From an uncultured Eubacterium sp. (lineage in GTDB: Bacteria > Bacillota > Clostridia > Lachnospirales > Lachnospiraceae): DNA of 47,280 nt. Under the pieces are notes generated by a model. The model searched no databases. It was given only the letters and a program-made list of their open reading frames with translations, and was not told the DNA's origin. Shown one piece after another: positions 21,158 to 44,635 of this stretch. Each line of letters starts with the position of its first letter. The first letter of the stretch is position 1. The DNA is taken from positions 1 through 47,280 of the forward strand of contig CANDMI010000023.1 in the NCBI GenBank assembly GCA_947385775.1. Direction: 5' to 3'. A program made the position numbers and the translations under genes.

Positions 21158-21189
21158 CTTTTCACCTCTTATCAATTCTTTCCAAAATT

Positions 21190-21738
21190 TTATGTATATC
21201 TCTTTTTTACCATATAATTCAGTATACCGCCAATTACAATAATTGCAAAGGCTACAAATAAAACCCGTTTTGCCGCTTCCTGGGGCAGCTCGCTTTTCTC
21301 CCCTATGGTGTCTTTATAAAATATAAAGCGGTAATTGATCTCAATCGGGCTTCCCATCGCCGTAGTATCCGCAACCGCCTCCATCGGCGCATCCCAGACA
21401 AGCGCCGGTATCTCAAAAACAGAGTTCATCCCTTCCCCGCTCTGGTTTTCATAGCGGACGCCGTCTACGATCATATAATCATAATTGGGGCTGCTCCACT
21501 GGATACGGGCATAAGGCGTTCCATTTTTTACCGTGAGTACGGTGGGCGACGTTACAGAAGCTTTTCCGCTGCCGCCGCTTAAATCCACCGATACGCTGTA
21601 TTCCCCGTCTTTCATGCCCCCGTCCGCGCCGCTTTTTGCATAAGCGCGGCTGGGTATAAAGAAGAATACCAAAAATATGAGCGCTGCCTTTACCCACAAT
21701 CCCCGTAATGCATCCCATGTTTTTACGCTGCGCTTCAT
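21190..21738 (-). CDS. Membrane-anchored protein with NEAT-like domain
   Basis: A 182-residue extracytoplasmic protein. An N-terminal hydrophobic segment (signal or anchor, about 15-34) precedes a single beta-sandwich domain (about 40-145) and a C-terminal transmembrane helix with a positive K-K-R-Y-T tail. The domain has D-G-E-Y-S-V-S-V, W-S-S-P-N-Y-D-Y-M-I-V-D-G and F-E-I-P-A-L. It closely matches the second domain of the lipoprotein at 41054-43123. The strand pattern resembles NEAT (near-iron-transporter) domains, but the classical Y-x-x-x-Y haem motif in the last strand is missing. It sits next to an ABC-2 transporter pair, so it may hand a metal or tetrapyrrole to or from that transporter; this is inference. 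Start chosen at the ATG after GGGGG. Confidence 0.7.
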   Translation of the reverse strand: MKRSVKTWDALRGLWVKAALIFLVFFFIPSRAYAKSGADGGMKDGEYSVSVDLSGGSGKASVTSPTVLTVKNGTPYARIQWSSPNYDYMIVDGVRYENQSGEGMNSVFEIPALVWDAPMEAVADTTAMGSPIEINYRFIFYKDTIGEKSELPQEAAKRVLFVAFAIIVIGGILNYMVKKRYT

Positions 21739-21821
21739 TTCTGCCCCCATAGTTCTACATTCTATCAAAGTTTTTTGAACCCATCAAAGATTCTGCTTTT
21801 CTTCTAAGGCTCTGCTCCCCA

Positions 21822-22553
21822 TCAAAGATTCTGCTTCCGGTATACAAACCATAACCCGGCTGCTGTCAAAGCGGATAAATAAGCCAGTAATACGAAAATC
21901 CCGGACGCATCCCATGCTTCTCCGTACGCGATGGAGCGCACAATGCCGCTTGTTTCAGATAACGGCAGTATCCCAATGGCCCCCCGCAGCCCCTTTGGCA
22001 TATTTTCCGTAGAAAAAAAGGTATTGCATAAATACGCCATCGGCATGATCAGGTAATTGGAAAATCTGGGCACATCCGCATGGTTCCTGGCTAAAAAGGA
22101 CACCACTACGCCAAGGGCGGAAAACACGGCTCCATTTAAAAACAATACCAAAAAAGAAACCCCGTTAAAAATAAGCCCCGTATGGATTGGCCATACCAGC
22201 AGCAGAATCACCCCGCCCGCATACAGCCCCCGAAGGGAGCCGGCAAGTATCTGCCCCGCCATAAACTGCCAGAGCGGCGTCGGTGAGATCATCACCTGGT
22301 CAAAGGCTTTTTCATACAGCCTTTGGACATTTAAGTTTTGCGCTATGGCGTTAAAGCTGCCGTTCATCGTAGTCAACGCCACCACCCCCGGTATCAGGTA
22401 ATGCAAATACGGCTTCCCGTGGGACACGGTCTGAACCCCCAGCCCGAAAACCAGAAGGTACATAAGCGGCGCGATCATAGCCGCCAATGTGATCTTATAA
22501 AAATCCCTGCGAAATTCCACCCATTTTTCCCATAAAATTGTAATTATCCCCAT
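21822..22553 (-). CDS. ABC-2 type transporter permease
   Basis: A 243-residue integral membrane protein with about six hydrophobic helices of the ABC-2 (drug/polysaccharide exporter-like) superfamily. Typical features are R-R-D-F-Y-K-I near the start, Q-R-L-Y-E-K-A-F-D-Q-V-M-I-S-P-T-P after helix two, and P-L-S-E-T-S-G-I-V-R-S near the end. Its start overlaps the upstream ATPase gene by 10 bp, so the two form one transporter. ABC-2 systems usually export; the substrate cannot be read from sequence. Lying inside a cobalamin unit, beside a NEAT-like membrane protein, it may handle a tetrapyrrole or metal complex. Confidence 0.85.
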   Translation of the reverse strand: MGIITILWEKWVEFRRDFYKITLAAMIAPLMYLLVFGLGVQTVSHGKPYLHYLIPGVVALTTMNGSFNAIAQNLNVQRLYEKAFDQVMISPTPLWQFMAGQILAGSLRGLYAGGVILLLVWPIHTGLIFNGVSFLVLFLNGAVFSALGVVVSFLARNHADVPRFSNYLIMPMAYLCNTFFSTENMPKGLRGAIGILPLSETSGIVRSIAYGEAWDASGIFVLLAYLSALTAAGLWFVYRKQNL

Positions 22554-23404
22554 GTTTTTCCATCGGCCCCATCTTTTTTCGCGCGTTCAATGAACACATC
22601 CTCTAACGTCGTCCCCCGAAGCTGCATCTTAGCTGTGGTGTGCGAGGCATATTCCAAAGCTTCTTCTTTTGTATGAAAATAACGGGTTTTCGTCTCTCCC
22701 TGGGCTGTTTCATCTACGGCAAACGGCCCTAGGGAAGCGATGAAATTTTTCGGGGCGTCGATCTCCTTTTCCCCGATCCGCCCGTGGGCCATCATCGCGA
22801 CCCTGCCGCACAAATTTTCCGCCTCTTCCATATAATGGGTCGTAAGCAGGATCGTCAGATTCTTTTCATTCAACCGCTTTAACAGCCCCCACATCTGCCG
22901 CCTGGAAACCGCGTCCATGCCCGCCGTAGGCTCGTCTAAAAGCAGGATTTCCGGCCCGGTCAGAAGCGCGCGGCATACCATCAGCTTGCGCTTCATGCCG
23001 CCGGACAGCTTGCGGACGGTTTTTTTGCGGTGTCTTTCCAGCCCGCAAAATTCCAGCAGTTCTTCGCTTTTTCGCCGGATTTCTTTTTTCGGCATATAAT
23101 ACAGCCTGCCCTGGTATTCCATAATTTCATCCATATTCATATCCTGGCGCATGGAATATTCCTGTGTAATGACGCTTAGCTTGCGCTTTAAATCTGTGCG
23201 CTTTCGCGTAAGCAGCTCCCCGTCAATATATATTTCCCCGCTGGTAGGCAAAAGGAGGGTAGAAAGCATCCCAATCGTAGTCGTCTTACCCGCCCCGTTT
23301 AACCCCAGCAGCCCAAAAAACTCCCCGGTTTCGATTGTCAGATTCACGGAATCCACCGCCGTAAACGCGCCAAATTTTTTCGTAATATTTCTAAGGGCGA
23401 TCAT
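22544..23404 (-). CDS. ABC transporter ATP-binding protein (DrrA/CcmA-like)
   Basis: A 286-residue nucleotide-binding protein. Walker A is G-L-N-G-A-G-K-T-T-T (about 34-43), the signature is K-L-S-G-G-M-K-R-K-L and Walker B is I-L-L-L-D-E-P-T-A-G-M-D. A C-terminal extension of about 60 residues is typical of the DrrA-type partners of ABC-2 permeases. The start overlaps the stop of cbiL by four bases (ATGA), and the stop overlaps the permease start, so translational coupling is expected. Substrate unknown. Confidence 0.9.
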   Translation of the reverse strand: MIALRNITKKFGAFTAVDSVNLTIETGEFFGLLGLNGAGKTTTIGMLSTLLLPTSGEIYIDGELLTRKRTDLKRKLSVITQEYSMRQDMNMDEIMEYQGRLYYMPKKEIRRKSEELLEFCGLERHRKKTVRKLSGGMKRKLMVCRALLTGPEILLLDEPTAGMDAVSRRQMWGLLKRLNEKNLTILLTTHYMEEAENLCGRVAMMAHGRIGEKEIDAPKNFIASLGPFAVDETAQGETKTRYFHTKEEALEYASHTTAKMQLRGTTLEDVFIERAKKDGADGKTWG

Positions 23405-24132
23405 AGACAGCCTGCTTCCCGGTCTTCTTCCCGATCTTCTTCCCGATCTTCTCCTTTGGAAATAATCAGGGAATAATACCCGGCTGTGTCCGGTATTTCG
23501 TCCACATGCATATAAACCTGCTCGCTGCTTGTCCCGCAGTTTTCGATCATCACCGCGTCGCGCCCGCTTTTTTTCAAAATCTCTTTCACCTGCCCCATTT
23601 TGCTGCCGGATTTCATTAAAACGCAGGTGCCGGAGTCTGGCAGCGTTTCCGACAGCATATGGACAGCCGGGAAAATATGAACCTGTTCATTCCAGATGGC
23701 AAGGGGCATATTCATCCGCGCCGCAGCCGCGCAAAAGGATGGTATCCCGCTGACAAGCTGCGTGGAATACCCGTCTTTTTCCACGATCTGCTGGATATAG
23801 GCAAACGTAGAGTAAACCGAAGAATCTCCAAGCGTAAGGAATACCACATTTTTGCCCTGCTCCAAATACGATTCCACAAGCTTTGCCCCCTGCCTGTGGC
23901 ATCTTGCCTGCTCTTTTTTATCATGGGTCATAGGCATATATACCGCAAGGAGCTGCTTTTTTGCCAGCTCCGGGACTGCTGCCGATGCGATTTTATATGC
24001 CACGGTTTCTTTTGGGCTGTTTCCCGGCAAAGCGACCACATCGTTTTCCCGGATCAGCTTTACCGCCTTTAACGTCATAAGCTCCGGGTCGCCAGGGCCG
24101 ACCCCTACCCCATATAAAATTCCATACTTCAT
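23401..24132 (-). CDS. cbiL: Cobalt-factor II (precorrin-2) C20-methyltransferase
   Basis: A 243-residue SAM-dependent tetrapyrrole methylase that adds the C20 methyl group. The N-terminal motif G-V-G-V-G-P-G-D-P-E-L-M-T-L-K-A and the mid-protein T-L-G-D-S-S-V-Y-S-T-F and G-I-P-S-F are diagnostic for CbiL/CobI. The start overlaps the cbiA stop by four bases. The last about 16 residues are an added acidic/basic tail made of E-E-D-R repeats, encoded by a 12-bp tandem repeat, and are not part of the family fold. The substrate is cobalt-factor II in the anaerobic route, inferred from cbi neighbours. Confidence 0.92.
   Translation of the reverse strand: MKYGILYGVGVGPGDPELMTLKAVKLIRENDVVALPGNSPKETVAYKIASAAVPELAKKQLLAVYMPMTHDKKEQARCHRQGAKLVESYLEQGKNVVFLTLGDSSVYSTFAYIQQIVEKDGYSTQLVSGIPSFCAAAARMNMPLAIWNEQVHIFPAVHMLSETLPDSGTCVLMKSGSKMGQVKEILKKSGRDAVMIENCGTSSEQVYMHVDEIPDTAGYYSLIISKGEDREEDREEDREAGCL
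23420..23455 (-). repeat. 12-bp tandem repeat encoding the E-E-D-R tail of CbiL
   Basis: Three copies of a GGAAGAAGATCG-type unit (minus strand) in frame at the 3' end of cbiL. Copy-number change would alter the tail length without disrupting the frame. Confidence 0.7.
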
Positions 24133-25580
24133 GCGCTATCCTCTTTTCCATCGTTTTTTGTATACCCGTTTTCCAGCGTATGCTTATACCGCGCCGCTTT
24201 TCCCAAAAATGACTGCGCAAACGCCGGATTGGACGGATAATATAAATGCGGGAAGCCCATCCAGCGGTTTTCATCCGTGATCACGCAAGGATACTCCTTC
24301 CCCGTGGCGGGCTTTACGGCGGTAACCCCCGCCCCGTTCATCGTGCTGTCATAATAGTGAAATTCATGCCCCTTAATATATGCCCCCGGAGGCAGGAAAT
24401 TATTTTGCTTCTCCCGCATCGTTACATACCCAAAGCGCGTCAGCTTTCCGGTATAAAAACAGTCCGCAGGGATTACGCCGCACATCTCATAGCGGCCTCC
24501 ATCCTGGTCAGTCAATGCTTCATGCAGATACATAAACCCCCCGCATTCCGCCACAATCGGCATCCCCTGCTTTGCCGCGGCTTTCACCGCCCTGCGCATC
24601 CGTCCGTTTTCGCTTAGCCGCTTAGCGTACAGCTCCGGGTATCCGCCGCCTAACAATAAAGCGTGGCACCCTTTTGGCAGTTCTTTATCGAAAAGGGGCG
24701 AAAAATACCGGATCGCCGCGCCGTTTTCTTCCAGCAGGCGTATATTATCTTCATAATAAAAACAAAACGCTTCGTCCCTTGCCACCGCAAGCGCAACCTC
24801 CGCTTCCCGCTTGCGCCAAACATGCGGCGTATCAATGCCTGGCCACGGCGCCGTCCCGCAGGCATCCGTTTTTAAACATCCTCCAAGCTCCTGCGCCTGC
24901 TCCGCTATGGAAACCAGCTCTTTTAGAGAAACATTCTTTTTCAATTCTTCCGCCGCCATACGAAGCTTTTCTTGTATGTCATGCAGCTCATCCGGCAAAA
25001 CCAGCCCCAGGTGGCGGCAGTCCATACGGCATTCCTCCTTTTGCGGCAAAAATCCCGCGACGGTAAGCTTTAGCTCCGCCTCTATAAGCGGCTTTATCAT
25101 CTCATAATATCCCCTGGATACCTTGTTTAAGATGACCCCTTTTATTAAATGATGTTTATCATATAAAAGAAACCCCGCCAGCATCGGGATAACCGAGCGG
25201 CCCATCCCTTTTGCGTCTATTACAAGCACAATCGGGGTTTTCGTCACCTTTGCCAGATGGTAGGAGGAGCCTTCCTCCCGGATTCCCCCAAGCCCGTCGT
25301 AAAGCCCCATTACGCCTTCCAAAACCGCAATATCGGCCCCCGCGCCATGGTTCAAAAAAAGCTCCCGCGTCCCATCTTCCCCTGTAAAAAAGGTATCCAG
25401 GTTTTTGGACGGGACTTTCAGCGCCTTTTCATGAAACATTGGGTCAATATAATCCGGGCCGCATTTAAAAGAAACCGCCTGGCGGCCCTCATCCTTTAAC
25501 GTCTGTAAAAAGGCGCAGGTAACCGTCGTTTTCCCGCTGCCGCTTTTGGGCGCGGCTATCATTATCCTGTTTATTTTCAC
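24129..25580 (-). CDS. cbiA: Cobyrinate a,c-diamide synthase
   Basis: A 483-residue ATP- and glutamine-dependent amidase that converts cobyrinate to its a,c-diamide. The N-terminal P-loop is A-P-K-S-G-S-G-K-T-T (about 10-19). The C-terminal class I glutamine amidotransferase domain has nucleophile C346 in A-E-C-G-G-F-M-Y-L and G-H-E-F-H-Y-Y. I use the GTG at 25580: it lies seven bases after the upstream gene's stop and follows AGGAGG/GAGG sites. An ORF-opening ATG at 25616 would overlap the upstream gene by 29 bp. The stop overlaps cbiL by four bases. Confidence 0.92.
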   Translation of the reverse strand: MKINRIMIAAPKSGSGKTTVTCAFLQTLKDEGRQAVSFKCGPDYIDPMFHEKALKVPSKNLDTFFTGEDGTRELFLNHGAGADIAVLEGVMGLYDGLGGIREEGSSYHLAKVTKTPIVLVIDAKGMGRSVIPMLAGFLLYDKHHLIKGVILNKVSRGYYEMIKPLIEAELKLTVAGFLPQKEECRMDCRHLGLVLPDELHDIQEKLRMAAEELKKNVSLKELVSIAEQAQELGGCLKTDACGTAPWPGIDTPHVWRKREAEVALAVARDEAFCFYYEDNIRLLEENGAAIRYFSPLFDKELPKGCHALLLGGGYPELYAKRLSENGRMRRAVKAAAKQGMPIVAECGGFMYLHEALTDQDGGRYEMCGVIPADCFYTGKLTRFGYVTMREKQNNFLPPGAYIKGHEFHYYDSTMNGAGVTAVKPATGKEYPCVITDENRWMGFPHLYYPSNPAFAQSFLGKAARYKHTLENGYTKNDGKEDSA

Positions 25581-25587
25581 GCAGCCT

Positions 25588-27768
25588 CTATTCCTCCTTA
25601 CAAAACGTAAACGCACAGATCCAAACCGGGTTTTCCGACCGCACCAGATGGTAATCCCCGGCTTCCCTTGCCCTGCTTACCTGTAGCTGTACGGCCTGCG
25701 CGTCCTTTATCCGGCCCGATGTTTTGGCAAAATATAAGATTTCCTTGATTTCACACACCGTCTCCATACTGACCGCGTTTATGACAACCCGCATTTTTGG
25801 ATTTCTGTTATAAAGCGCGGTTAATATCTCTTTTAACCTGCCGCCGCTGCCCCCTACCAGCGCATGGGTTGGGGCCGGCAGCCCGGGAAACGCTTCCAGC
25901 GCTTTTTGCGCAACAACCTGAATATTCGAAAGCCCGGCTTTTTTTCTGTTTTGCTCTATTAATGAAACGGCTTCCTTTTTCCGCTCTATGGCGTACACCT
26001 GTATATCGTCCGACAGGGCCGCTATTTCCACGGCGATGGAGCCTGTGCCGCTGCCAATGTCGTAAACCACCGCACCGTCCCGCAGCTTAAGCTTACATAT
26101 ACTGACCTCCCGCACCTCCTCCTTGGTCATGGGAACCTTATCCCGGATAAACCAGCTGTCCGGCAAGCCGTGGGTTAATTCCCTTCCCGCCGCGGACGGG
26201 TTTTTGACCAGGCAGGTGTACAGCCCTTCCTCCCTAAGCCCACGGCATTCCAACGGGGTATGGGTTTCGATACGCTGGCTTTCGTAAGAAAGCTGGTAGC
26301 CGGTTACGACCTCACAATCCGAAAGCCCCGCCAAAAGCAGCTCCTCCCCAATCCGGTTCACATCCGCGACGCCGGAGGTAAGCAAAAAGGTTTTGGAGTT
26401 CGCCCTTACCTTTTTTGCAAGGTTGCATATTTTTTTCCCGTGCAGGCTGTAAACGGCGGCATCCTGATAGCTTTCCCCGACGCGCGCCGCCAGATACGCC
26501 ACAGAGGATATGCCGGGCAGCATCCGCACACGGGCCCGCAGCCCGCCCTGGCGGATCTCTTTTTCCAAAGCGTCGTATACAGGCTTCGCGCCGCTGTAAA
26601 ACCCGCTGTCCCCGGAAAATAATACGGCGGCTTTTTTTATCCTTTCCGGGTTTTCCTTTTGGGATTCCTTTAAATAAGGGATGATCTGCCCCGCAAGGTA
26701 ATACGGCAGCTTTTCCGCCCCGGCAGGCATCCGCTCCAAAAGCCTTGGGGCGCCAAACAAAAGATCCGCTTCCCGCACTGCCTGCTCCACCTCTATCGTA
26801 AGGCTGCCCCTGTCCCCCATGCCAACGCCCGCTAACGAAATCTCCATAAAAAACTCCTGAACGCCGCCTGACGGTTCCGTGTCCGCAGGTAAAATGCGTT
26901 TTCCGCAAATCCCTTCCAGCTTCCCGCAGACCTCCGCAAAGGAATATCCTTTTGTTTCCTGCGGCCGTCCGATCACAAACGCCTGCACCCCCGCGTTTTT
27001 TGCGGCTGTAAGCTTTTGTGGGAATCCGCCGTTTGCGCCGCTGTCTTTTGTCACCATGCAGGAAATGTCAAACTGGCGGAAAACCGCTTCGTTCATCTCC
27101 ACGGAAAACGGCCCCTGCATGGCGATGACCCGTTTTCCGAAAATGCCCTGTTTTTCACACAGCAAAATGCTCTCGGCGCTTGGCAGCGCCCGGACATACA
27201 GCCGCTCCTTTAGCAGCGGGCGGGCGCTGTAGGATGCTAATTCCTTGCTTCCGATGGCCAGCAGGATATTCCCGCTGGTATGCTCTAGGGCCGCTGCGCA
27301 GGCTTCGTTCGTATGAAAATAGGTAACGCCTTCTTCTTTATTATCTTCTTTATCCTTTTTTTCTTCCGCTGACTGCCCCTGCCCTGCGTCCCGCAGCAGC
27401 CGTAAATATGGAATTTTCCTATGAGAATGATCTAAAATTCGCTCTAAAATCCGGGAATGCTCCAAAACCGATTCGTCCCTGACGGATTCCTGTAAGCCCT
27501 CCAACGCCGCCTTAATCGTTGCCGTAACCTCTCTGGCATAGGGGTGCGTAGCGTCCACCACCGCGGCATACCGCCCGGTTCCCATCAGGCTTTCCATCTC
27601 CTGACGGCCCATCCTCCCCTGGCGCACGTTTGCATATGGGGAATGGGAAAGCGCCATTTCCCCGTATTCCGTGGCTACGCAGACGGTATGCGGGATTTTT
27701 GCGGCTGACAGGCATTCTGACAGCTTCCTTCCCTCAGTTGTCCCCGCAAACAGCAATATCTCCTTCAA
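25588..27768 (-). CDS. cbiJ-cbiE-cbiT: Fusion of cobalt-precorrin-6A reductase (CbiJ), C5/C15-methyltransferase domains CbiE and CbiT
   Basis: A 726-residue fusion of three steps. Residues 1-292 are CbiJ/CobK, the NADPH reductase of precorrin-6A: L-F-A-G-T-T-E-G-R-K, V-V-D-A-T-H-P-Y-A and T-K-D-S-G-A-N-G-G-F. Residues about 308-520 are CbiE, a tetrapyrrole methylase: G-V-G-M-G-D-R-G-S-L-T and G-D-S-G-F-Y-S-G. Residues about 525-726 are CbiT, a Rossmann methyltransferase/decarboxylase: V-Y-D-I-G-S-G-T-G-S-I-A-V-E. CbiE-CbiT fusions (CobL) are common; an additional N-terminal CbiJ is unusual. An insert rich in Lys/Glu/Asp lies at about 130-147. The start overlaps the 3' end of cbiH by 35 bp, and the stop is seven bases before cbiA. 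Confidence 0.93.
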   Translation of the reverse strand: MKEILLFAGTTEGRKLSECLSAAKIPHTVCVATEYGEMALSHSPYANVRQGRMGRQEMESLMGTGRYAAVVDATHPYAREVTATIKAALEGLQESVRDESVLEHSRILERILDHSHRKIPYLRLLRDAGQGQSAEEKKDKEDNKEEGVTYFHTNEACAAALEHTSGNILLAIGSKELASYSARPLLKERLYVRALPSAESILLCEKQGIFGKRVIAMQGPFSVEMNEAVFRQFDISCMVTKDSGANGGFPQKLTAAKNAGVQAFVIGRPQETKGYSFAEVCGKLEGICGKRILPADTEPSGGVQEFFMEISLAGVGMGDRGSLTIEVEQAVREADLLFGAPRLLERMPAGAEKLPYYLAGQIIPYLKESQKENPERIKKAAVLFSGDSGFYSGAKPVYDALEKEIRQGGLRARVRMLPGISSVAYLAARVGESYQDAAVYSLHGKKICNLAKKVRANSKTFLLTSGVADVNRIGEELLLAGLSDCEVVTGYQLSYESQRIETHTPLECRGLREEGLYTCLVKNPSAAGRELTHGLPDSWFIRDKVPMTKEEVREVSICKLKLRDGAVVYDIGSGTGSIAVEIAALSDDIQVYAIERKKEAVSLIEQNRKKAGLSNIQVVAQKALEAFPGLPAPTHALVGGSGGRLKEILTALYNRNPKMRVVINAVSMETVCEIKEILYFAKTSGRIKDAQAVQLQVSRAREAGDYHLVRSENPVWICAFTFCKEE

Positions 27769-28495
27769 CCCGGTACCCCCGTTTCGTAATAAGCTTTCCG
27801 TTTCGGATTTCCGAGCCGGAATTTCCGATAAATACAGTTGTGAACATATTGACCCTGGCGCTTTTTAGCTCCTCCAGCGTACATACGGCCGCTTTCGTCC
27901 CTTCCCGCCCGATATTTTCCACGTAACCGCAGGCCCGCCCCGGCTCTATGACGCGCAGCAATATGCCGCAGGCCCGCTCCAGATAATCTTTCCTTTTATG
28001 GCTGGACGGGTTATACAGCGCGATCGCAAAATCCCCCTCCGCCGCGGCCAGAAGCCTTTTTTCAATGATTTCCCAGGGCGTTAACAGGTCGCTTAAGCTG
28101 ATGACGCAAAAATCGTGGTTTAACGGCGCGCCTAAGACCGCGGCGCCGCTGTTTGCCGCGGTCACCCCGGGGATTACCGCCAGCTCTATATCCGGATAGC
28201 CTTTTCCAATCTCGTACATCAAAGAAGCCATCCCATACACCCCGGCATCCCCGCTGCATACAAGCGCGGTTTTTTTCCCTTTCCGCGCCTGTGCAAAGCA
28301 AAGCCTGCACCGTTCTTCCTCCTGCCGCATGGACGTGGAAATAAGCTCCTTTCCCTGAAACCTCCTGCCCAGCAAATCCAGATATACGGTATATCCGATA
28401 ATGACATCCGCATTCTCCAGCGCGTTTACCGCCTCCGCCGTCATCATTTCCTCTTTCCCCGGCCCCATTCCTACAATATAAATCTTATTCCCCAT
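27734..28495 (-). CDS. cbiH: Cobalt-factor III (precorrin-3B) C17-methyltransferase
   Basis: A 253-residue tetrapyrrole methylase that adds the C17 methyl group with ring contraction. Motifs are I-V-G-M-G-P-G, A-D-V-I-I-G-Y-T-V-Y-L-D, C-S-G-D-A-G-V-Y-G-M-A and P-G-V-T-A-A-N-S-G-A-A. N-H-D-F-C-V-I-S-L-S-D-L-L-T-P-W is diagnostic for CbiH/CobJ. The length is that of the single-domain form. The start overlaps cbiG by 11 bp and the end overlaps the CbiJ fusion by 35 bp. Confidence 0.95.
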   Translation of the reverse strand: MGNKIYIVGMGPGKEEMMTAEAVNALENADVIIGYTVYLDLLGRRFQGKELISTSMRQEEERCRLCFAQARKGKKTALVCSGDAGVYGMASLMYEIGKGYPDIELAVIPGVTAANSGAAVLGAPLNHDFCVISLSDLLTPWEIIEKRLLAAAEGDFAIALYNPSSHKRKDYLERACGILLRVIEPGRACGYVENIGREGTKAAVCTLEELKSARVNMFTTVFIGNSGSEIRNGKLITKRGYRVEGDIAVCGDN

Positions 28496-31452: not shown

Positions 31453-31462
31453 TTTTTAAACC

Positions 31463-32128: not shown

Positions 32129-32145
32129 AATATCCTCGCTTACAT

Positions 32146-33156: not shown

Positions 33157-33182
33157 ATGTATAGCCCTCTCCTGTTTATTTT

Positions 33183-34858: not shown

Positions 34859-35226
34859 ATGACGCGCTCCACCCCCTCCGCTTTTTGGGCAAGCCGTATC
34901 AAAAGCCTGCCGGCTTGTTCCCGGTATTCCCTTTCAAAAGAATCCGCCGGGACAATCCCATTTCCCACCTCGTCGCTGATAATGACGCAGTTTTTACAGC
35001 GCTCCAAAAATGCGTCCAGCTCCTTTTGCGGGCATCCGCCGCGGGACATGCATTCCCTCACCCATTGGTGGAAACGGTTTATTACCACGCACCCGCCGGA
35101 CTCCATTTTCAAAATCTCCTGCTTATCCGGCAATGCCGCGTCCCACACGTTACCTTCCTTTAGCTGATATTTGGACAATACATAGTCCAGCTTCCCCTGC
35201 GCAAACCCGCCTATTATTAATTTCAT
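34831..35226 (-). CDS. Short CobU-like protein (adenosylcobinamide kinase/guanylyltransferase homologue)
   Basis: A 131-residue protein, about 45 residues shorter than normal CobU. The C-terminal half matches CobU well: I-S-D-E-V-G-N-G-I-V-P-A-D, then E-Q-A-G-R-L, then a C-terminal G-I-G-Q-K-I-K. The P-loop is degenerate: G-G-F-A-Q-G-K has Leu in place of the Ser/Thr after Lys. The region with the guanylylated His is missing. A second, full-length CobU (36029-36562) lies one gene upstream and has the P-loop and His but lacks the G-I-V-P motif. The two may work together or this one may be regulatory or decaying. The start has AAGGGG upstream. Confidence 0.75.
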   Translation of the reverse strand: MKLIIGGFAQGKLDYVLSKYQLKEGNVWDAALPDKQEILKMESGGCVVINRFHQWVRECMSRGGCPQKELDAFLERCKNCVIISDEVGNGIVPADSFEREYREQAGRLLIRLAQKAEGVERVICGIGQKIK

Positions 35227-35238
35227 ATCATACCCCTT

Positions 35239-36015
35239 TTAAATCATATCCGCCAGAAAAATCTGGACTGCCGCCGCCGTCACTACGACGCACCCCTCGC
35301 AAAGCAGCACAAAGCACCCGGATGTATCCCCATTGACGCCGCCAAACTCTTTCACGCTCCGGTAACGGTAATACCACAACGCCGCCCCCGCTGCAATAGA
35401 CACCAGCAGCCCTGCCGCAAACGACCAGTAAACCAGCAGCCCGATACAGGCGGCGCTCTGCAAATACAAAGAGCCTTTTACGATTTTTTTATGGGAGCTG
35501 TCCGCAAAAAGGTACAGCATCCCGTCCTTTTTCGCCAGCGGGAACGAAACCACGCTAAGCCCGCAAAGGCAGCGGGATAAGAAAAATCCGCCGCAGACTA
35601 CCTTCCATAGCGTCACGTCCTTTATTTCGGAAAACGCCCCCAGAAAAACCAGCCCGTATACCGCAAACGTAATGACCGCAAACGCCCCGATATGGGAATC
35701 CTTTAAAATCTCCAGCTTCCGCTCCTTGGAACCGTAAGAATGCAGCGCGTCCATCGTATCGATAAAACCATCTACATGAATGCCGCCGGTCAGCAATACC
35801 GGGATGGCCGCCCCCACCGCGGCATGGCATACCGCCCCGATATGAAAGCTGCCGCAAATCCAGCCCCAGGCATAAATACAGCCGCCAATCAGCCCCCCAA
35901 TCCAGGGAAAAAAGCAGAAAATGTATTTCATGTCCTCTTCCTTCCATGGAAACTGGGGCACCGGAATCTTGGAATACATTGCGGCTGCTATAAAAAAAGA
36001 TTTCACTGCCCGCAT
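35239..36015 (-). CDS. cobS: Adenosylcobinamide-GDP ribazoletransferase (cobalamin synthase)
   Basis: A 258-residue membrane enzyme that joins adenosylcobinamide-GDP and alpha-ribazole (phosphate) in the last step. The acidic motif G-G-I-H-V-D-G-F-I-D-T-M-D-A-L (about 77-91), conserved in CobS, is present, with E-R-K-L-E-I-L-K-D-S-H-I-G-A-F after it. At least five hydrophobic helices are visible. The start has GGAGG six bases upstream, and the neighbours overlap or nearly abut it. Confidence 0.94.
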   Translation of the reverse strand: MRAVKSFFIAAAMYSKIPVPQFPWKEEDMKYIFCFFPWIGGLIGGCIYAWGWICGSFHIGAVCHAAVGAAIPVLLTGGIHVDGFIDTMDALHSYGSKERKLEILKDSHIGAFAVITFAVYGLVFLGAFSEIKDVTLWKVVCGGFFLSRCLCGLSVVSFPLAKKDGMLYLFADSSHKKIVKGSLYLQSAACIGLLVYWSFAAGLLVSIAAGAALWYYRYRSVKEFGGVNGDTSGCFVLLCEGCVVVTAAAVQIFLADMI

Positions 36016-36028
36016 TTTTATCCTCCGC

Positions 36029-36562
36029 CTATTTTATACGCACAGGTTCTCCCGCTACAACCTCCACTACCCGCTGCGCCGCCGCCGCAAGGAGCCGGTT
36101 CGCCCTGCCCATTGCGCGGATATATTTCATCGTCGCCTCATCATACATAATGCCGTCTTCAAAAACGTTGTTGCTCACCACTATAAAATGGGTCACATTG
36201 TCCCGCAGCAGCAGGATTCCGTTTACAACCGCGTCCACCGCCTGTGCTTCTTCCAAAACCCCTTCCTGCGTAAACATCTCGTTTGCCATTAAATTAGAAA
36301 CGCATTCCAGCAGTACGGCGCATCCCGGAGTTTCCATTTTTCCCAGCGCCCCCTGTATGCGGACGGGCTGTTCGATGGCGCGAAAGCCTTTCCCGGCCCG
36401 GAGCTTTTTATGCCGCGCCACCCTTTTTTTCCCTTCCTCGTCCAATACCCGCATCGTCGCCAGATAATACCGTTTCATGCCGTCTTTTGTAAGAGATGCC
36501 ACGGCCTGTTCCGCATATGCGGATTTCCCGCTTCCGCCGCCCCCGATCACCAGCTCCATCAT
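36029..36562 (-). CDS. cobU: Adenosylcobinamide kinase / adenosylcobinamide-phosphate guanylyltransferase
   Basis: A 177-residue CobU/CobP protein. The N-terminal P-loop is I-G-G-G-G-S-G-K-S-A-Y-A-E. The guanylylated His of the family is probably H51 in R-V-A-R-H-K-K-L-R. L-L-E-C-V-S-N-L-M-A-N-E follows. The usual N-E-V-G-x-G-I-V-P segment is replaced by S-N-N-V-F-E-D-G-I-M-Y-D-E, which is unusual. A short homologue with the intact version of that segment lies nearby (34831-35226). It lies between cobT and cobS. Confidence 0.88.
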   Translation of the reverse strand: MMELVIGGGGSGKSAYAEQAVASLTKDGMKRYYLATMRVLDEEGKKRVARHKKLRAGKGFRAIEQPVRIQGALGKMETPGCAVLLECVSNLMANEMFTQEGVLEEAQAVDAVVNGILLLRDNVTHFIVVSNNVFEDGIMYDEATMKYIRAMGRANRLLAAAAQRVVEVVAGEPVRIK

Positions 36563-36589
36563 AGCCCAAACTACCCCCGCTTTTTATCA

Positions 36590-37681
36590 TCAAAACCGCT
36601 CGTACTGCTCCACCTGGATGTCCGAAAAAGAAACCTTCCCCTGGTAAATACACAACGCCATATCTAACAGCGACAGCATCATCACGGCCCCGGTGCCTTC
36701 CCCCAGCGCCATATCCCCGTGGATAACCGGCTTTAGCCCCAGCGCTTTTAACAGCTTTTCCACCGCCGGCTCCTTCCCCTTATGGGAAGGTATCAGATAC
36801 CGGGCCGTACCGGGTATCAAACGCTCCGCCAGCAGCGCCGCCACCATACTGATCACCCCGTCTAAGACAACCGGCATATGGAAAACGGCCCCGCCAATGC
36901 ATACCCCCGCAAGCCCCGCGATATCCAGTCCGCCTACCGTCTGTAGCACCGTAAGCGGCTCCGCCTCATAAAGCCCGTACTTTGCAACCGACTCTGCGAT
37001 GACCTGCTTTTTGCGCTCTAACTTTTCATCGCAAAGCCCCGCGCCCCTGCCAGTCACCTCCTGCGCTCTACAATACAGCAATGCCGCCGCAACCGCGCTG
37101 CTGGTAGTCGTATTCCCTATCCCCATCTCTCCGGTGGCGACGATCTGATACCCTTTCTTTTTGCAGTCCAAAACAAGCTCCATCCCGGCCATGACCGCGC
37201 GAAGGGCTTCCTGCTGCGTCATCGCAGGTTCTTTGTAAAAATTCCTGGCTCCCTTTCGCACTTTTTTGTCCAGCACACCCTCGATACGCTCTTCGCTGTT
37301 TATCCCGATGTCCACCGGAATCGTATCCGCGCCGATTGCCGCGGCCATTTTCCCTACGGAAGAAAACCCCTGGGCCATTTCCTTTGCCACCGCAAGCGTA
37401 ACCTCCTGCCCGGTCTGGCTGACCCCTTCCTCCACCACTCCGTTATCCGCGCACATAATGATCACGGCCTTTTTACTAAGGCTTATATCTTCCGTGCCTA
37501 AAATCGCGCCGATCTGCGCGGTAATCCCTTCAAACCTGCCCATGCCGTCCAGCGGCTTGGCAATCCCGTCCCAGTTTTTTAATATTTTTTTATATACCGT
37601 TTCATCCGGCGCGTCCACCGCCAGCGCCTCAAACTCCTCTTTTGTGCCTTTATCCAATATGCGCTTCCCTAAGTATTCCAT
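36590..37681 (-). CDS. cobT: Nicotinate-nucleotide-dimethylbenzimidazole phosphoribosyltransferase
   Basis: A 363-residue enzyme that activates the lower-ligand base to its alpha-riboside phosphate. Family motifs are [35 protein letters not shown] and G-E-G-T-G-A-V-M, the last holding the catalytic Glu. The start overlaps the 3' end of cbiP by 32 bp. No benzimidazole-synthesis genes are seen, so the base used (benzimidazole, purine or phenolic) is unknown. Confidence 0.95.
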
Positions 37682-39134
37682 AAATCTCCCTCATGTCCAA
37701 ATGCTGCGATAAAATATCCGCAAGCTTTTCATACTGCTTTTCTTTATAGTCCCTGTAATCCAAAACCCCGGCATGTTCCAGGGCAATCCCTTTTTTTTGC
37801 GCCAGCGCGCCCAAAAGCGCGCAGGCAATTTTTGCTTTGTCAAATACGCCGTGGACGTAGGTTCCGTATACATCCTTCGTCCCCCCGCTTACAAACACGG
37901 ATTTTATGCTTTCATCCCCGGCCCCCTGCATGACGCTTTGCCCCATATGTATCTCATACCCTTCGTAGGAAAGCCCCGAAAGCCCGGAAAAGATACCCTC
38001 CATCCTATTCATAACCCCATTGGCCTGGCGGCGCACCTTTTCCCGGGTAAGCTCCGTTATCACCGGCAAAAGCCCTATCCCGTCTATGGAGCCTCCGGCT
38101 TCCACCTCTTTAGGGTCGGATATTTTAAGCCCAAGCATCTGATACCCGCCGCAGATGCCGCAGATGGGTATTTTACCCGCCAGGCCCTTTACCGCATCCT
38201 CCAGGCCGTTTTCCCGCATCCACCTTAAATCCTCCATCGTGTTTTTGCTGCCTGGTAAAAACAGGATATCCGGACAGCCCAACTCCCCCGCCGTGGCCAC
38301 ATAACGCACCGTCGCCTGCGGCATTTGTTCAAACACGTTAAAATCCGTAAAATTAGAGATTCTGGGATACCGGAGCACAGCAATATCGATCCCGCCCTTT
38401 TGGCGTTTTTCAAACCGTCCCGTCAGGCTGTCCTCGTCCTCTAATTCAATATCCATATAAGGCACTACCCCCGCCACCGGGACGCCACCCTTTTTTTCTA
38501 ATATTTCAACGCCGCTGTCCAAAAGGGAACGGTCGCCCCGGAATTTGTTGATAATAAGCCCTTTTACCCTTGCCCGTTCTGATTCCGTCAAAAGCATCAG
38601 CGTCCCCAAAAGCTGCGCAAACACGCCGCCCCGGTCAATATCCCCTGCCAAAAGCACAGGGGCGTCTATCATTTCCGCAAGCCCCATATTGACAATGTCA
38701 TTCTCCCGCAGGTTTACCTCCGCCGGGCTGCCCGCGCCTTCCACCACAATCACGTCCGCCATCCCCGCAAGCTTTCGGAACGCTTTTTTTATTTCCGGTA
38801 TCAGGCTCTTTTTATAATGAAAATATTCCTTCGCGCCCATATTCCCGATGGACGTACCGTTTACAATGACCTGCGCCCCCGTATGGTTTGTGGGCTTTAA
38901 CAACACCGGATTCATACAGCATAAAGGCTCGATTCCCGCCGCCTCCGCCTGCATCACCTGTGCCCGCCCCATTTCCAGCCCCTCTTTTGTAATAAAAGAA
39001 TTGAGGGCCATATTCTGGGATTTAAACGGCGCCGCCGCATACCCGTCCCGTTTTAAAATTCTGCAAAGCCCCGCTGTCAAAAGGCTCTTTCCCACGCCGG
39101 ACATCGTCCCCTGCACCATAATCACTTTTGCCAT
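37650..39134 (-). CDS. cbiP: Cobyric acid synthase
   Basis: A 494-residue glutamine-dependent enzyme that amidates four side chains of adenosylcobyrinate a,c-diamide. The N-terminal [11 protein letters not shown] is the ATP-binding loop of the dethiobiotin-synthetase-like domain. The C-terminal amidotransferase domain has nucleophile C328 in [22 protein letters not shown] is diagnostic. The start overlaps the ATPase gene by 13 bp, and it is preceded by AGGTGGGG. Confidence 0.95.
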
Positions 39135-39922
39135 ATCCCCACCTGCTTTACATATTCCAAAAACTTCTTATTTTTCAAAAACTCCCCGCCCTTCATATCA
39201 TACAGCCGCTCAATAAAATCTGACGAAAACACCTCGGCGGGCGTGCCGTAGCGCTCTACGTATTCCCCTTTTAAGCACAGCAGCCTGTCCGATACGATTT
39301 TCGCAAGCTCCAGCTCGTGCAGGGACATAATGACCGTAAGCCCTTTTTTCTCCCGCATTTCCTGTAATATAAATAAAAATTCCAGCTTATAACGGATGTC
39401 CAGATAGGAAGTCGGCTCGTCCAATATGACGATCTCCGGTTCCTGGCAAATAGCCCTTGCAAGCATCACCCGCTGCTTCTGCCCGTCGCTGATTTTATCA
39501 AACTCACATTCCCCGATGCCCGCGGTATGGGTTAACTCCATCACCTCGTCCACGATCTCTTCGTCCTGCTTCGACAGATTTCCAAACCAGCCGGTATAAG
39601 GGTATCGCCCGGTAGCAACCACATCCCGGCATGTTTTCATTTCCGCTTTTACCTTTTGCGTAAGCACCACCGACATCTTTTTCGCAAGCTGCCCGGCCTT
39701 CATTTCAGACAGCGGCTCGTCTCCCAGATATGCCGCCCCGCCCATTAATGCAAGCTGCCCCGCTATGCTTTTTAATACCGTAGACTTCCCGGCCCCGTTT
39801 GGCCCGATCAGGCTTAAAATTTCCCCTTTTGGCAGCGCGACCTCGATTTCCTTTATCAGAGGTTTCTGCCCGTACCCTACGCACATTTTCTTTGTGGTAA
39901 AATAATAATTTTCCGTATTCAT
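39122..39922 (-). CDS. ABC transporter ATP-binding protein (FepC/BtuD-type)
   Basis: A 266-residue ATPase of the iron-siderophore/B12 import family. Walker A is [10 protein letters not shown] (about 39-48), a variant signature I-S-D-G-Q-K-Q-R replaces L-S-G-G-Q, and Walker B is V-I-L-D-E-P-T-S. The reading frame is open back to 40216, but the ATG at 39922 overlaps the permease stop as ATGA and gives the family length. With the FecCD permease and the fused binding protein it should form an importer; cobalamin, cobinamide, haem-like or metal-chelate substrates are all possible. Confidence 0.88.
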
Positions 39923-40953
39923 ATATGCTGTTCTTTCCGTTTTTTTATCATAATCCAGAGCACTACAGGCGCCCCAAAAATCGCGGTCACCGTGCTGATG
40001 CTTAATTCTGTAGGCGCAAGCATGGTCTTTGCAAGCAGGTCGCAAAACAGGCAAAAGACGCTGCCCCCAAGAAAGCACGCCGGAATCATAAAAATCGGCT
40101 CCGCCGTATTCAAAAGCTTTTTTACCAGATGGGGCGCGGCAATGCCCACAAAGGAAACCGGGCCTGCAAACGCCACGATACACGCCGATAAAACGCTGGA
40201 AAACAGCACAATGCACACCCGCAGCACACGGATATTGACCCCTACGCTTTTTGCATAGGCATCCCCGAGCTGATAGGCGCTAAGGGGCTTGGACATCAAA
40301 AACACCGCCAAAAACGTCACGCCTACCACCCCGGACATGACCGCTACATTTTCCCAGGACATGCCAGAAAAGCTGCCCCTGGACCAGTTGTGCAGGTTGA
40401 TGATATCGGCGTCGTCCGCAAAGGTAATGACAAGCTCCGTAACCGCCGTACAGATGTAACCGATCATAACGCCGCTGACCACCAGCATGGACATATTCGG
40501 GACCCTGCGTGAAACTAATAAAACAAAGCCCATGGACAGCATCGCCCCCGCAAACGCGGCAAGTATCATAGCCGCCGACGTCACCCGTATCTGCCTGCCC
40601 ATTAAGAAAACCATCACAAGCGCCACGACCATTTTTGCCCCGGAGGATATCCCAAGGACAAAGGGCCCGGCAATGGGATTATTAAAAAACGTCTGCAATA
40701 GATATCCCGCAAGCGCGAGCGACCCGCCCAATAAAAACGCAGCCGCGGCCCTTGGCAGGCGGATATCCCACAAAATCTTTACCGCCGTCTCCTCCCCCTT
40801 CCCGCCAAGCATCCCCGCTATTTCCGACAGGGAGATACGGATACTGCCGATACAGATATTCAGTACGAAAAAAACTGCCGCCCCGATTCCAAGAAAAATA
40901 AACGCCGCCAGATACCTGCCCTGTCTTTTTGCCATACCGCCTTTTACTGGCAT
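39919..40953 (-). CDS. ABC transporter permease, FecCD/BtuC family
   Basis: A 344-residue polytopic membrane protein with about nine to ten hydrophobic helices. Typical motifs are I-R-L-P-R-A-A-A-A-F-L-L-G-G-S-L-A-L-A-G, N-N-P-I-A-G-P-F-V-L-G-I-S-S-G-A and F-V-G-I-A-A-P-H-L-V. This family imports siderophores, haem and B12. The start at the ATG 40953 is preceded by GGGGGG at eight bases. It is coupled to the ATPase by a four-base overlap and lies about 100 bp after the lipoprotein gene. Confidence 0.9.
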   Translation of the reverse strand: MPVKGGMAKRQGRYLAAFIFLGIGAAVFFVLNICIGSIRISLSEIAGMLGGKGEETAVKILWDIRLPRAAAAFLLGGSLALAGYLLQTFFNNPIAGPFVLGISSGAKMVVALVMVFLMGRQIRVTSAAMILAAFAGAMLSMGFVLLVSRRVPNMSMLVVSGVMIGYICTAVTELVITFADDADIINLHNWSRGSFSGMSWENVAVMSGVVGVTFLAVFLMSKPLSAYQLGDAYAKSVGVNIRVLRVCIVLFSSVLSACIVAFAGPVSFVGIAAPHLVKKLLNTAEPIFMIPACFLGGSVFCLFCDLLAKTMLAPTELSISTVTAIFGAPVVLWIMIKKRKEQHI

Positions 40954-41053
40954 CAAAAATGCCCCCCTTTTTATTACTTTTTACGTCTCGTTCTTCCGCC
41001 TGGCCTTTGCAACTTATCCCGCGGCAAAATTGAACGTTATTTCCTGACAGCCC

Positions 41054-43123
41054 CTATTTCAAACGAAAAAGATAGTGCATTCCGTCTTTTTTACCGTGAA
41101 TCATCCTGTGAATATCATCCATCAAATAGCCGATGGACAACGACTGCTGGTACACATCGTTTGTGGTACACCAGACATTTCCTTCCTTCACCGCTTTAAA
41201 ATCCGCCAGCAGCTTACATTTATCCAGCAATTCGTCCACGCCGGATACGCCGCCGTCAATGGAGCTGTTGTAAATCAAATAATCCGCATCCTTTGCCCCT
41301 GCGTAAAATTCCTCGATCTGCATATTCATCGTGGAGCGTTTTTCCTCCGCGTCCCCCAGCTTAGGAAATACATACCGCCCCCCTGCAAGCCCGATCATTT
41401 TGGGAATATAATCCGACGGCCGGCGTACCTGCGCCAGCCCGTTTGAGGTAATATAAAAAAACGCTACCGTCTTTTTTGTGTTTTCCTTGGCGCTAACCCG
41501 TTCCAGTATTTCCTGCTGCCCCGCGAATATTTTTTCCGCTTCTTTTTCCTTCCCAAGCAGCTCCCCATAAAACTTTACCCATTCCACCCGCCCTAGGGGA
41601 TGAGATTCATAGCTGGAATAGTCTATTAGAACTGGTATCCCAAAATCAGCCAGCTTTTCGACTACCTCCGGGGTATGGGAGATCATCATGTTTTCAATCG
41701 CAAGCGGACAATTACTGGATACAATCATCTCATAATCCGGCATATTGTATTTTCCGGCATAGAGGATATCCCCCTTTTCCATCGCTTCTTTTGCTTCTTT
41801 AATATACCATCCATCCGCCTTTTGCCCAGAAAACCGAATCGTAGACAGCCCTCCCAGCTCACTGAACATATTCATCGCGGAGGACGCTACCAGATATATA
41901 TTTTCCAGCGGACGCTTTAGCGTCACCACCTGCGTATTTTCCGCCAGCCCAAGCGCCTTTGCGGGATCCTCTGGCGCTTCCTTTCCCCGGGGCACGAGCA
42001 AAAACCGCGCGCCGTCCATAGAAGTAGAAAGCAGGGTATAGCCGCCCTGATAATAATCTACAGTAAAGTTTTTTGCGTAACGAAGCTCTAGGCTTTTTTC
42101 ATAAACGAGCCCTCCCGCCCCTGCCTGCCCCTTTGGCTTTGCGCCAGCCGTATCCGCCGCTTTCTCAATTGACCCGGAATGGAAGGTCAGCGTATATTCC
42201 ACTTCATGGGGCTTGCTCATTGCTACGGTATCTCCGATGACCTTTATCGGCTCATCCAGCTTTACGATTGGAAACTCAAACACACTGCCGCCTCCTACAC
42301 TGGCCGGAAGGTATTTTTTCCCATCCACAAGCATATAATCATAATTCGGGCTGCTCCACTGCACCGTAGCCACGGCTTTTCCATCCGCTATCGTAACGGA
42401 AGCGGGAGACAGCAGCTTCGCCCTCCCGCTTCCGCCCTCAAATGTAAAATCCATGCGGTAATCGCCGTCGTCCAGCTCCTCTATGCTCATTTTCCCTGCC
42501 CCATCAGCGGTTTTGCCTTGTTCCCCATCTTCCAACGGAATCGGATTTGACACGGTCACCTTATGGTCGTACCATTTTCCCTTTGTCCCAACCAGCGCAA
42601 GGTCAAACGGTTCCCCGATCGCCGGAACCGGCACGTCAAAACCATATACCTCCTCCGTCATGCCGTCGCTGTATGTAACCGTATCCCCGCTGGGCATAAG
42701 CCACGCATCCTTATTGCCGGCCGCGTCTTTTGCAAGCCCGGGATAGAGGTTCACGATCCTTTTGGAGTTTAAGGAAATATGGATCGTCATATTTCCCCCC
42801 GCCACGGTAAGCGTCCCCTTGCCTTCGCAGGCTTCGCTTACATGGAACATGCCGCTGTCCGTATCAAATTCCGCAAGATATACGCCGTCTGAAAGCCCGG
42901 CGGAGCCTGGCTGTTTGTCCGCATCCGATGTTTGGGTGTTATCCGACTGTTTTGCCGCATCTGATGCACCGCCTGACGGCGCGCTTTCTCCTGTATCAGA
43001 TTCAAGCCCTGCCTCTTCTTGGGACAGCGTGTCGCTTTTATTCGCCGCATCGTTTTTATCCCCGCAGCCGCCAGCCAGTAACGCAAAAAGGAGCAAAACC
43101 GCAATTCCCACATGTTTTTTCAT
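41054..43123 (-). CDS. Lipoprotein with two NEAT-like domains fused to a FecB/BtuF-type binding protein
   Basis: A 689-residue surface lipoprotein. A signal peptide ends in L-L-A-G-G-C (C20 lipidated), and a flexible Asp/Ser/Gln-rich linker (21-75) follows. The first NEAT-like domain (about 78-197) has K-W-Y-D-H-K-V near its end, partly like the Y-D-H-x-x haem motif. The second (about 214-318) has W-S-S-P-N-Y-D-Y-M-L-V-D-G and matches the membrane protein at 21190-21738. Residues about 340-689 are a periplasmic-binding-protein-like FecB/BtuF module (Y-Y-Q-G-G-Y, N-G-L-A-Q-V-R-R, G-G-R-Y-V-F-P). It is the binding component for the FecCD importer. The metal or tetrapyrrole ligand is inferred from context. 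A tandem repeat precedes its start. Confidence 0.85.
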   Translation of the reverse strand: MKKHVGIAVLLLFALLAGGCGDKNDAANKSDTLSQEEAGLESDTGESAPSGGASDAAKQSDNTQTSDADKQPGSAGLSDGVYLAEFDTDSGMFHVSEACEGKGTLTVAGGNMTIHISLNSKRIVNLYPGLAKDAAGNKDAWLMPSGDTVTYSDGMTEEVYGFDVPVPAIGEPFDLALVGTKGKWYDHKVTVSNPIPLEDGEQGKTADGAGKMSIEELDDGDYRMDFTFEGGSGRAKLLSPASVTIADGKAVATVQWSSPNYDYMLVDGKKYLPASVGGGSVFEFPIVKLDEPIKVIGDTVAMSKPHEVEYTLTFHSGSIEKAADTAGAKPKGQAGAGGLVYEKSLELRYAKNFTVDYYQGGYTLLSTSMDGARFLLVPRGKEAPEDPAKALGLAENTQVVTLKRPLENIYLVASSAMNMFSELGGLSTIRFSGQKADGWYIKEAKEAMEKGDILYAGKYNMPDYEMIVSSNCPLAIENMMISHTPEVVEKLADFGIPVLIDYSSYESHPLGRVEWVKFYGELLGKEKEAEKIFAGQQEILERVSAKENTKKTVAFFYITSNGLAQVRRPSDYIPKMIGLAGGRYVFPKLGDAEEKRSTMNMQIEEFYAGAKDADYLIYNSSIDGGVSGVDELLDKCKLLADFKAVKEGNVWCTTNDVYQQSLSIGYLMDDIHRMIHGKKDGMHYLFRLK

Positions 43124-43130: not shown

Positions 43131-43218
43131 TAACCTCTTTATTTCATACTTCTTTATTTCATACTTCTTTATTTCATGCTTCTTTATTTTATACTTGTCA
43201 TAACCTCTTTATTTCATA
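43131..43218 (-). repeat. 15-bp tandem repeat between cbiK and the NEAT/FecB-like gene
   Basis: Units at 43134-43148, 43149-43163, 43164-43178 and 43179-43193, all of the form TATGAAATAAAGAAG on the minus strand, with a further copy at 43204-43218 that includes the last two codons and stop of cbiK. An identical 18-bp sequence flanks both ends. Most units spell ATG-AAA-TAA, a start-stop mini-ORF, after a weak purine-rich ribosome site. Confidence 0.8.
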
Positions 43219-44586: not shown

Positions 44587-44635
44587 AAATGTACAACCAA
44601 TTACTCGTGGTTTTGAAGCAAACGCTTCTGTACAA

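Follow-up and report, generated by a model that had tools for sequence, protein, structure and literature searches.

A cobalamin operon of an uncultured Eubacterium sp. begins with a cobaltochelatase, CbiK, that carries an export signal, a lipoprotein with NEAT-like domains and a BtuCD-type importer. We propose that these proteins would load cobalt into a sirohydrochlorin-type ring at the cell surface, hand the ring over through NEAT domains and import it, a reading to which we give a probability of about 0.58. The operon lies on the minus strand of contig CANDMI010000023.1 (assembly GCA_947385775.1); the whole stretch of 47,280 nt that was analyzed is called the window, and all coordinates without a genome or locus label refer to it. 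The computed evidence comprises fold, domains, gene order, signals, conserved chelatase residues and co-occurrence.

In the proposed mechanism, CbiK would sit as a lipoprotein on the outer side of the membrane and insert Co2+ into a sirohydrochlorin-type tetrapyrrole, and membrane-tethered NEAT domains, here termed D1 and D2, would bind the ring and pass it on. A binding protein fused to NEAT domains would deliver the cobalt-tetrapyrrole to BtuC-BtuD, and cytosolic Cbi enzymes would complete the corrin after import. The cassette would stand in for the usual cobalt importer and the cytosolic cobaltochelatase. In relatives that are tetrapyrrole auxotrophs it would act on rings from the gut; the window's organism probably sends its own ring out, perhaps through an ABC-2 pair and its NEAT-bearing membrane partner. 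We infer the ligand, the direction of flow, catalysis outside the membrane and the export step.

A NEAT-like domain shared by two proteins

The sequence-only reading of the window had placed one domain in two proteins, and this was borne out. Both are encoded on the minus strand: a 689-amino acid lipoprotein (41054..43123) and a 192-amino acid membrane protein (21190..21768) that consists of a signal, D2, a C-terminal transmembrane segment and a KKR tail. D2 covers residues 52-155 of the membrane protein and 217-319 of the lipoprotein (42167..42475), the two copies being identical at 45 of 104 aligned positions (43%, E 2e-27), and the motifs WSSPNYDYM, FE(I/F)P and (A)M..P.E..Y are common to both copies. 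This sharing is not due to chance, because 589 of at least 596 public genome stretches retrieved by a pattern search encode a D2 relative. Beyond the earlier reading, we found a second NEAT-like domain in the lipoprotein (D1, residues about 76-200, 42524..42898, with a W-Y-D-H motif), the export signal of CbiK and an ABC-2 pair adjoining the membrane protein. The lipoprotein also contains a Peripla_BP_2 domain (PF01497, residues 412-656, E 4.4e-26), and this binding-protein part has no PDB sequence match at E<=0.01.

The name NEAT-like is upheld by the predicted fold of lipoprotein D1-D2 and by PF05031 matches of relatives of both domains, but the window's own copies fall under the Pfam cut-off. 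The window lipoprotein reaches 15.2 bits against a gathering score of 32.8 (E 0.029, residues 239-314) and the membrane protein has no Pfam match to PF05031; across the organism's own genome, PF05031 gives a signal at these two proteins only, below cut-off (E 0.15 and 0.65). When aligned D2 sequences were compared with the PF05031 hidden Markov model, 58 of 73 matched at E<=0.1 (best 3.7e-7); the next-best Pfam family is aBig_2, matched by 31 of the 73 sequences (best 0.0012). The corresponding figure for D1 is 10 of 29 aligned sequences at E<=0.1 (best 8e-4), the window's own D1 not being among them.

An AlphaFold (AF2) model of lipoprotein D1-D2, the only one built and based on a 48-sequence alignment, has a mean predicted local distance difference test score of 90.0 and a predicted template modeling score of 0.56. 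The first 27 rows of a Foldseek search of the PDB with this model are all NEAT-protein entries, so the predicted structure is not unrelated to NEAT. Tandem IsdH N2-N3 matches across both domains (E 1.2e-7) at a root-mean-square deviation (rmsd) of 17.7, and the placement of the two domains in the model therefore differs from that in IsdH; single IsdX1 gives a template modeling score of 0.71 by target length and an rmsd of 2.9. Lipoprotein D1-D2 is thus modeled as a NEAT beta-sandwich fold, and the same fold is predicted for membrane D2 from its similarity to the lipoprotein copy. Searches of the PDB by sequence gave no significant NEAT match: the membrane protein had no match, profile A1 found 4qrk at best (E 0.056), and profile A3 found 4qrk (E 0.11) and IsdX1 (E 0.18-0.21).

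As first noted, the YxxxY motif of NEAT domains is lacking: lipoprotein D2 has HxxxY (H306-x-x-x-Y310) and membrane D2 has IxxxY. Judging from the register of the Pfam match, HxxxY probably occupies the YxxxY position. Among 73 D2 sequences, the residue four positions before the invariant Tyr is His in 69, Tyr in two, Ile in one (the window's membrane copy) and Val in one.

A CbiK with an export signal

The window CbiK (43209..44444, 411 amino acids, PF06180 E 1.8e-70) has a hydrophobic N-terminus ending in FAGC, which is lipobox-like with Phe at -3; this signal was read by eye from the translation. Its chelatase domain spans residues 135-410, where GHG and GDH align with Salmonella enterica CbiK (1qgo) so that both catalytic His are matched. 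The catalytic pair of 1qgo is His145 and His207 (PMC7689651). With 186.9 bits against a cut-off of 400, the protein misses the NCBIfam equivalog SiroCoChCbiK.

Export signals in the CbiK frames of 80 D2 loci were judged by eye and with a hydropathy rule, not SignalP. A strong hydrophobic segment precedes the domain in 65 of 72 frames (56 with a lipobox; the segment in locus L113 is doubtful), five others visibly carry signals just under the hydropathy cut-off, and two are without a signal (cytosolic). Comparison of 89 exported with 21 cytosolic CbiK sequences revealed 48 columns common to both at >=90%, including both catalytic His, and five columns conserved in cytosolic CbiK that differ or are looser in the exported form. 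The chelatase signature of exported CbiK appears intact, and catalysis would take place outside the membrane.

Between signal and chelatase domain, at residues about 45-120, the window CbiK has a conserved helical-looking stretch (AAxLIDAIYVQERTxETDAQC..AKAAWDALTDAQKxLVEGE..PDYFG) that is also present in relatives and matches no Pfam family at E<=1. Signal-less CbiK-like genes, partly divergent, accompany D2 in the same genomes or loci in G007 (C120), G008 (C96), L134 (12677-13486) and L075 (6922-7740); they possibly serve sirohaem or another metal.

The cassette in the window and in public loci

A cobalamin riboswitch heads the operon (44625..44810, RF00174, 73.1 bits, E 3.1e-16). The sequence-only reading had the pair of D2 proteins bracket the cobalamin unit; transcription starts at the riboswitch (44810-44625, minus strand), which puts the membrane protein near the far end and makes the lipoprotein gene second, after CbiK. 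The lipoprotein gene is followed by a BtuC/FecCD-type permease (39919..40956, PF01032 E 1.2e-78) and a BtuD/FecE-type ATPase (39122..40216, PF00005 E 3.2e-26), the latter given as an open frame inside which the protein probably starts. The top NCBIfam model for the ATPase is FecE, under that model's cut-off, and the permease misses the BtuC equivalog cut-off (205.3 vs 334 bits). By Pfam, PF01497, FecCD and ABC ATPase all occur in one operon, which is the importer architecture of BtuCDF and CbtJKL.

Public loci were read in the best 80 of at least 589 D2-bearing stretches. The order is CbiK, NEAT protein, binding protein, BtuC, BtuD, and the full cassette, in which CbiK precedes the NEAT protein and the binding protein, BtuC and BtuD come after it, is found in 57 of 62 loci having room on both sides; it is incomplete in L072, L087, L126, L134 and L137. 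Fusions include CbiK-D1-D2, CbiK-D1, D2-binding protein and D1-D2-binding protein. Among the hosts are Faecalibacterium, Gemmiger, Blautia and Butyrivibrio.

Variant arrangements were also seen. Loci L188 (genome G052) and L189 (G038) are headed by a riboswitch and encode proteins of 961-1600 amino acids with D1/D2-like domains and fragments of binding proteins; a binding protein, BtuC and BtuD come next, and there is no exported CbiK. Locus L148 (G020), which lacks D2, has a cytosolic CbiK-CbiL fusion (514 amino acids) and then a riboswitch with binding protein, BtuC and BtuD, possibly a form of the system without NEAT domains.

Co-occurrence with corrin synthesis and cobalt import

We surveyed 98 draft genomes, the organism's own and those of relatives, with p values that treat related genomes as independent. 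D2 was found in 21 genomes and CbiD in 41; all 21 D2-positive genomes are CbiD-positive, vs 20 of the 77 without D2 (p 2e-10). Classifying the CbiK of the 41 CbiD-positive genomes by N-termini read by eye and the hydropathy rule gave an exported form in 19, of which 18 have D2; the remaining one (G022) has exported CbiK and D1 but no D2 match. Conversely, no exported CbiK was found in three D2-positive genomes (G015, G038, G052). In 17 of the 19 (read by eye), the exported CbiK match is preceded by a cobalamin riboswitch no more than 1 kb away, the exceptions being G022, where none was found, and G023, where the contig starts.

These distributions bear on two other explanations. One is corrinoid scavenging: the NEAT domains would act as corrinoid receptors for a BtuCDF-type system that takes up cobamides or cobinamide. 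BtuCDF is classically a corrinoid importer, and both a BtuCD-type importer and a cobalamin riboswitch are present. However, D2 is found in none of the 57 CbiD-negative genomes, which would need it most, and a cobaltochelatase in the cassette would be pointless for a finished corrin, which makes scavenging very unlikely. The other is acquisition of haem iron, with exported CbiK as a reverse chelatase and NEAT domains, known as haem binders, delivering haem. A reverse chelatase role has reportedly been proposed for Porphyromonas gingivalis IhtB/FetB, and haem-binding FetB (9b86) and 2xvx, which we take to be the Desulfovibrio vulgaris chelatase, are the next solved homologues of the window CbiK. 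Against haem stand the cobalamin riboswitches, the restriction of D2 to CbiD-positive genomes, HxxxY in place of YxxxY and the absence of any further PF05031 match in the organism's own genome; this is the least probable explanation we considered.

Surface loading of a ring would also make the usual cobalt importer dispensable, and cobalt-type CbiM is present in two of 19 genomes with exported CbiK vs 16 of 20 other CbiD-positive genomes (p 1.7e-5), leaving aside G015, whose contig stops at the cassette, and G052, in which no CbiK was found. Cobalt-type CbiM was recognized by the HIMEG motif (G030 by score alone) and NikM-like relatives by HMADAL or the best score to that reference; the weak CbiM matches of G037, G079 and G092 were kept out of the cobalt-type count. 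A slightly different split gives 2/19 vs 15/19 (p 4.7e-5). No other CbiK or CbiX occurs in 11 of the 19, none of which has cobalt-type CbiM; the organism's own genome is one of these 11, with a single CbiK and no CbiX or CbiM match. Only in G093 and G095 are the CbiX matches, judged by their coordinates, anything other than cross-matches of CbiK.

Genomes lacking tetrapyrrole synthesis

Eight of the 41 CbiD-positive genomes have no HemB, HemC or SirC-like gene (G011, G016, G021, G035, G046, G052, G055, G076), SirC being scored absent when the best PF13241 match was weaker than 1e-7 or missing; with corrin genes present, they fit, as far as these three genes go, the definition of tetrapyrrole precursor salvagers. 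Since HemB, HemC and SirC are missing, these eight can build corrins solely from imported tetrapyrrole. Their corrin clusters, CbiL apart, are nearly whole in six (G011 and G035 were read partly), and six pass >=90% completeness and <=5% contamination (G035 is 60% and G046 88% complete). All eight have D2, vs 13 of the 33 other CbiD-positive genomes (p 0.0034). Seven have exported CbiK, and none of the eight has cytosolic CbiK, CbiX or cobalt-type CbiM. Exported CbiK is the sole recognized cobaltochelatase of these genomes (in G052 none was found).

The most serious competitor is plain Co2+ uptake of the CbtJKL kind, in which exported CbiK and the NEAT-like domains would be surface Co2+ binders feeding BtuCDF-type import, and cobalt would enter sirohydrochlorin in the cytosol, spontaneously or by SirC/CysG-B. 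CbtJKL of Sinorhizobium is a BtuFCD-like Co(II) importer controlled by an adenosylcobalamin riboswitch (PMC7689651). The window has a CysG-type SirC, and the cassette takes the place of cobalt-type CbiM. Plain uptake nevertheless does not explain why the domains have a NEAT fold, why exported CbiK keeps an intact chelatase signature, or the eight genomes that make corrins although HemB, HemC and SirC are missing, and we consider it unlikely. The suggestion of a tetrapyrrole relay outside haem uptake, made in the sequence-only reading, agrees with genomic context and gene content. That reading allowed a corrinoid, sirohydrochlorin or a cobalt complex as ligand; the evidence favors a sirohydrochlorin-level cobalt-tetrapyrrole, over corrinoids or haem, as the predicted one.

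Remaining genes of the operon and the ABC-2 pair

Downstream of the importer, corrin and nucleotide-loop genes occupy 24129..39134: CbiP, CobT, CobU, CobS, CbiB, CobD, CbiC, CbiD, CbiF, CbiG, CbiH, CbiJ-E-T and CbiA. CbiF, CbiG and CbiJET are named from NCBIfam (CbiG under its cut-offs) and CbiD from PF01888; names of the others were assigned by reading translations, without model support, as was that of CbiL, the precorrin-2 C20-methyltransferase (23401..24132). An ABC-2 ATPase follows (22544..23404, PF00005 E 3e-31; NCBIfam drrA-like, E 4.8e-71, under the model's cut-off), then an ABC-2 permease (21822..22553, PF01061 E 2.8e-19), the membrane D2 protein and a SirC/CysG-B-like precorrin-2 dehydrogenase (20537..21175, TIGR01470 E 1.6e-37, above cut-off). 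The sirohydrochlorin supply genes HemB, HemL, HemA and a HemC-CobA-HemD fusion, its HemD part weak, complete the operon (14502..20506, NCBIfam), so that the gene set spans glutamyl-tRNA reductase through loop assembly. With HemA, HemL, HemB, HemC-CobA-HemD and SirC present, the window is not that of a tetrapyrrole precursor salvager as defined by Shelton et al.

Because this organism makes its own ring, the ring would have to leave the cell before being loaded outside, and it is speculative that the ABC-2 pair, which lies between CbiL and SirC, exports it. The arrangement of CbiL, ABC-2 ATPase and permease with membrane D2 alongside recurs in L126, L131 and L134 (Blautia); in L065 the ABC-2 pair and D2 are present with CbiL not adjacent, and in all four loci the D2 relatives beside ABC-2 genes have a similar C-terminal tail. 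Genome G025 has CbiL and ABC-2 without D2 there; at this locus (L214, G025 C5, 5955-9979) the CbiL-ATPase-permease run is followed by a ferredoxin-domain corrinoid-protein activator-like gene, named from sequence. We rejected the exporter as a general component, a close orthologue being found in 2/98 genomes and 4/80 loci, and likewise the idea that CbiL always travels with it, as CbiL is elsewhere in several genomes.

Outside the operon, three proteins with RCC1-type repeats (PF00415/PF25390; 611, 698 and 613 amino acids; 3768-12093, minus strand), unusual for a bacterium, adjoin a ricin-type lectin protein (12118-13785).

Points that weigh against surface loading

Several observations count against the proposed mechanism. 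The survey counts are uncorrected for relatedness, the importer comparison covers the CbiM family, and the early tetrapyrrole genes scored are HemB, HemC and SirC. A NikM-like relative, possibly cobalt-carrying, occurs in 5 of the 17 exported-CbiK genomes without cobalt-type CbiM. Cytosolic CbiK accompanies the exported form in 5 of 19 genomes and a divergent one does so in three more; the D2-type cassettes of G038 and G052 contain no exported CbiK, and G020 combines cytosolic CbiK with BtuFCD in the absence of D2. Membrane D2 is without the His of HxxxY. HemB and HemC are both present in 13 of 21 D2 genomes, and ring import is therefore not forced by gene content there. In addition to the two close orthologues among the 98 genomes, the ABC-2 permease has two more relatives at 20-24% identity, and this rarity leaves export of an organism's own sirohydrochlorin without a general carrier; other producers would therefore need another route, or plain Co2+ uptake holds for them.

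CbiL raises a related point. It was not found in eight CbiD-positive genomes, all with D2 (G007, G008, G015, G016, G041, G052, G055, G076), four of which also lack tetrapyrrole synthesis (G016, G052, G055, G076), vs its presence in 20 of 20 D2-negative CbiD-positive genomes (p 0.0034). These genomes may import a later intermediate, or CbiL may have been replaced.

Relation to known systems and significance

The cassette resembles the Isd-type haem relays (IsdH, IsdB, IsdX1, Hbp2; PF05031) in its NEAT fold, tandem domains, membrane or surface tethering, and PF01497 binding protein with FecCD permease downstream. It differs from them in HxxxY or IxxxY of D2, B12 riboswitch control, linkage to CbiK and the corrin pathway, and a lipoprotein or C-terminal transmembrane anchor, no sortase anchor having been noticed. 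Desulfovibrio offers another comparison: the cbiK under its B12-element presumably encodes periplasmic CbiKP, and D. vulgaris also has a cytosolic CbiK. A single B12-element controls cbiK-cbiL and btuCDF in Desulfovibrio (PMC545781) and in O. alaskensis there is a riboswitch at cbiKP (PMC11124144); this system is in a Gram-negative periplasm, and the available excerpts name no NEAT domain. CbtJKL shares the BtuFCD-like importer and B12 riboswitch, whereas its substrate is Co(II) and its description, as far as available, includes neither an exported chelatase nor NEAT (PMC7689651).

IhtB and FetB of P. gingivalis, presumably one protein, are a surface lipoprotein and, like the window CbiK, a CbiK homologue. 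They are tied to haem iron (PMC13227078) and not to a B12 operon. Bacteria keeping the corrin pathway without tetrapyrrole synthesis, the precursor salvagers, have been described, the excerpt consulted naming no transporter (PMC6461909). The combination of NEAT, exported CbiK and B12 operon was not seen in the literature searched (titles and abstract starts, with few subscription papers); by the same measure, no paper pairing NEAT with cobalamin or cobalt concerned NEAT in B12 or cobalt uptake, none joined sirohydrochlorin with NEAT, and none dealt with a cobaltophore.

A broader and doubtful extension is that a sirohydrochlorin-level ring is a public cobalt carrier among gut Clostridia, released by producers and surface-loaded and imported by neighbors. 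Producers would release it through ABC-2 pairs and NEAT-bearing membrane proteins of the window type; neighbors, some without their own tetrapyrrole synthesis, would load it by surface CbiK, capture it by NEAT domains and take it up by BtuCD-type import. If so, this would be the entry route for part of the tetrapyrrole precursor salvagers and a metallophore-like use of a B12 intermediate, with a committed biosynthetic metal insertion outside the cell.

Surface loading itself, if true, would mean that many gut Clostridia have shifted metal insertion, a step of B12 synthesis, to the outer side of the membrane and that NEAT domains serve cobalt and B12 besides haem iron. It would change which of the gut bacteria count as B12 producers, and the cassette is a concrete, testable importer candidate for bacteria that keep the corrin pathway without tetrapyrrole synthesis.

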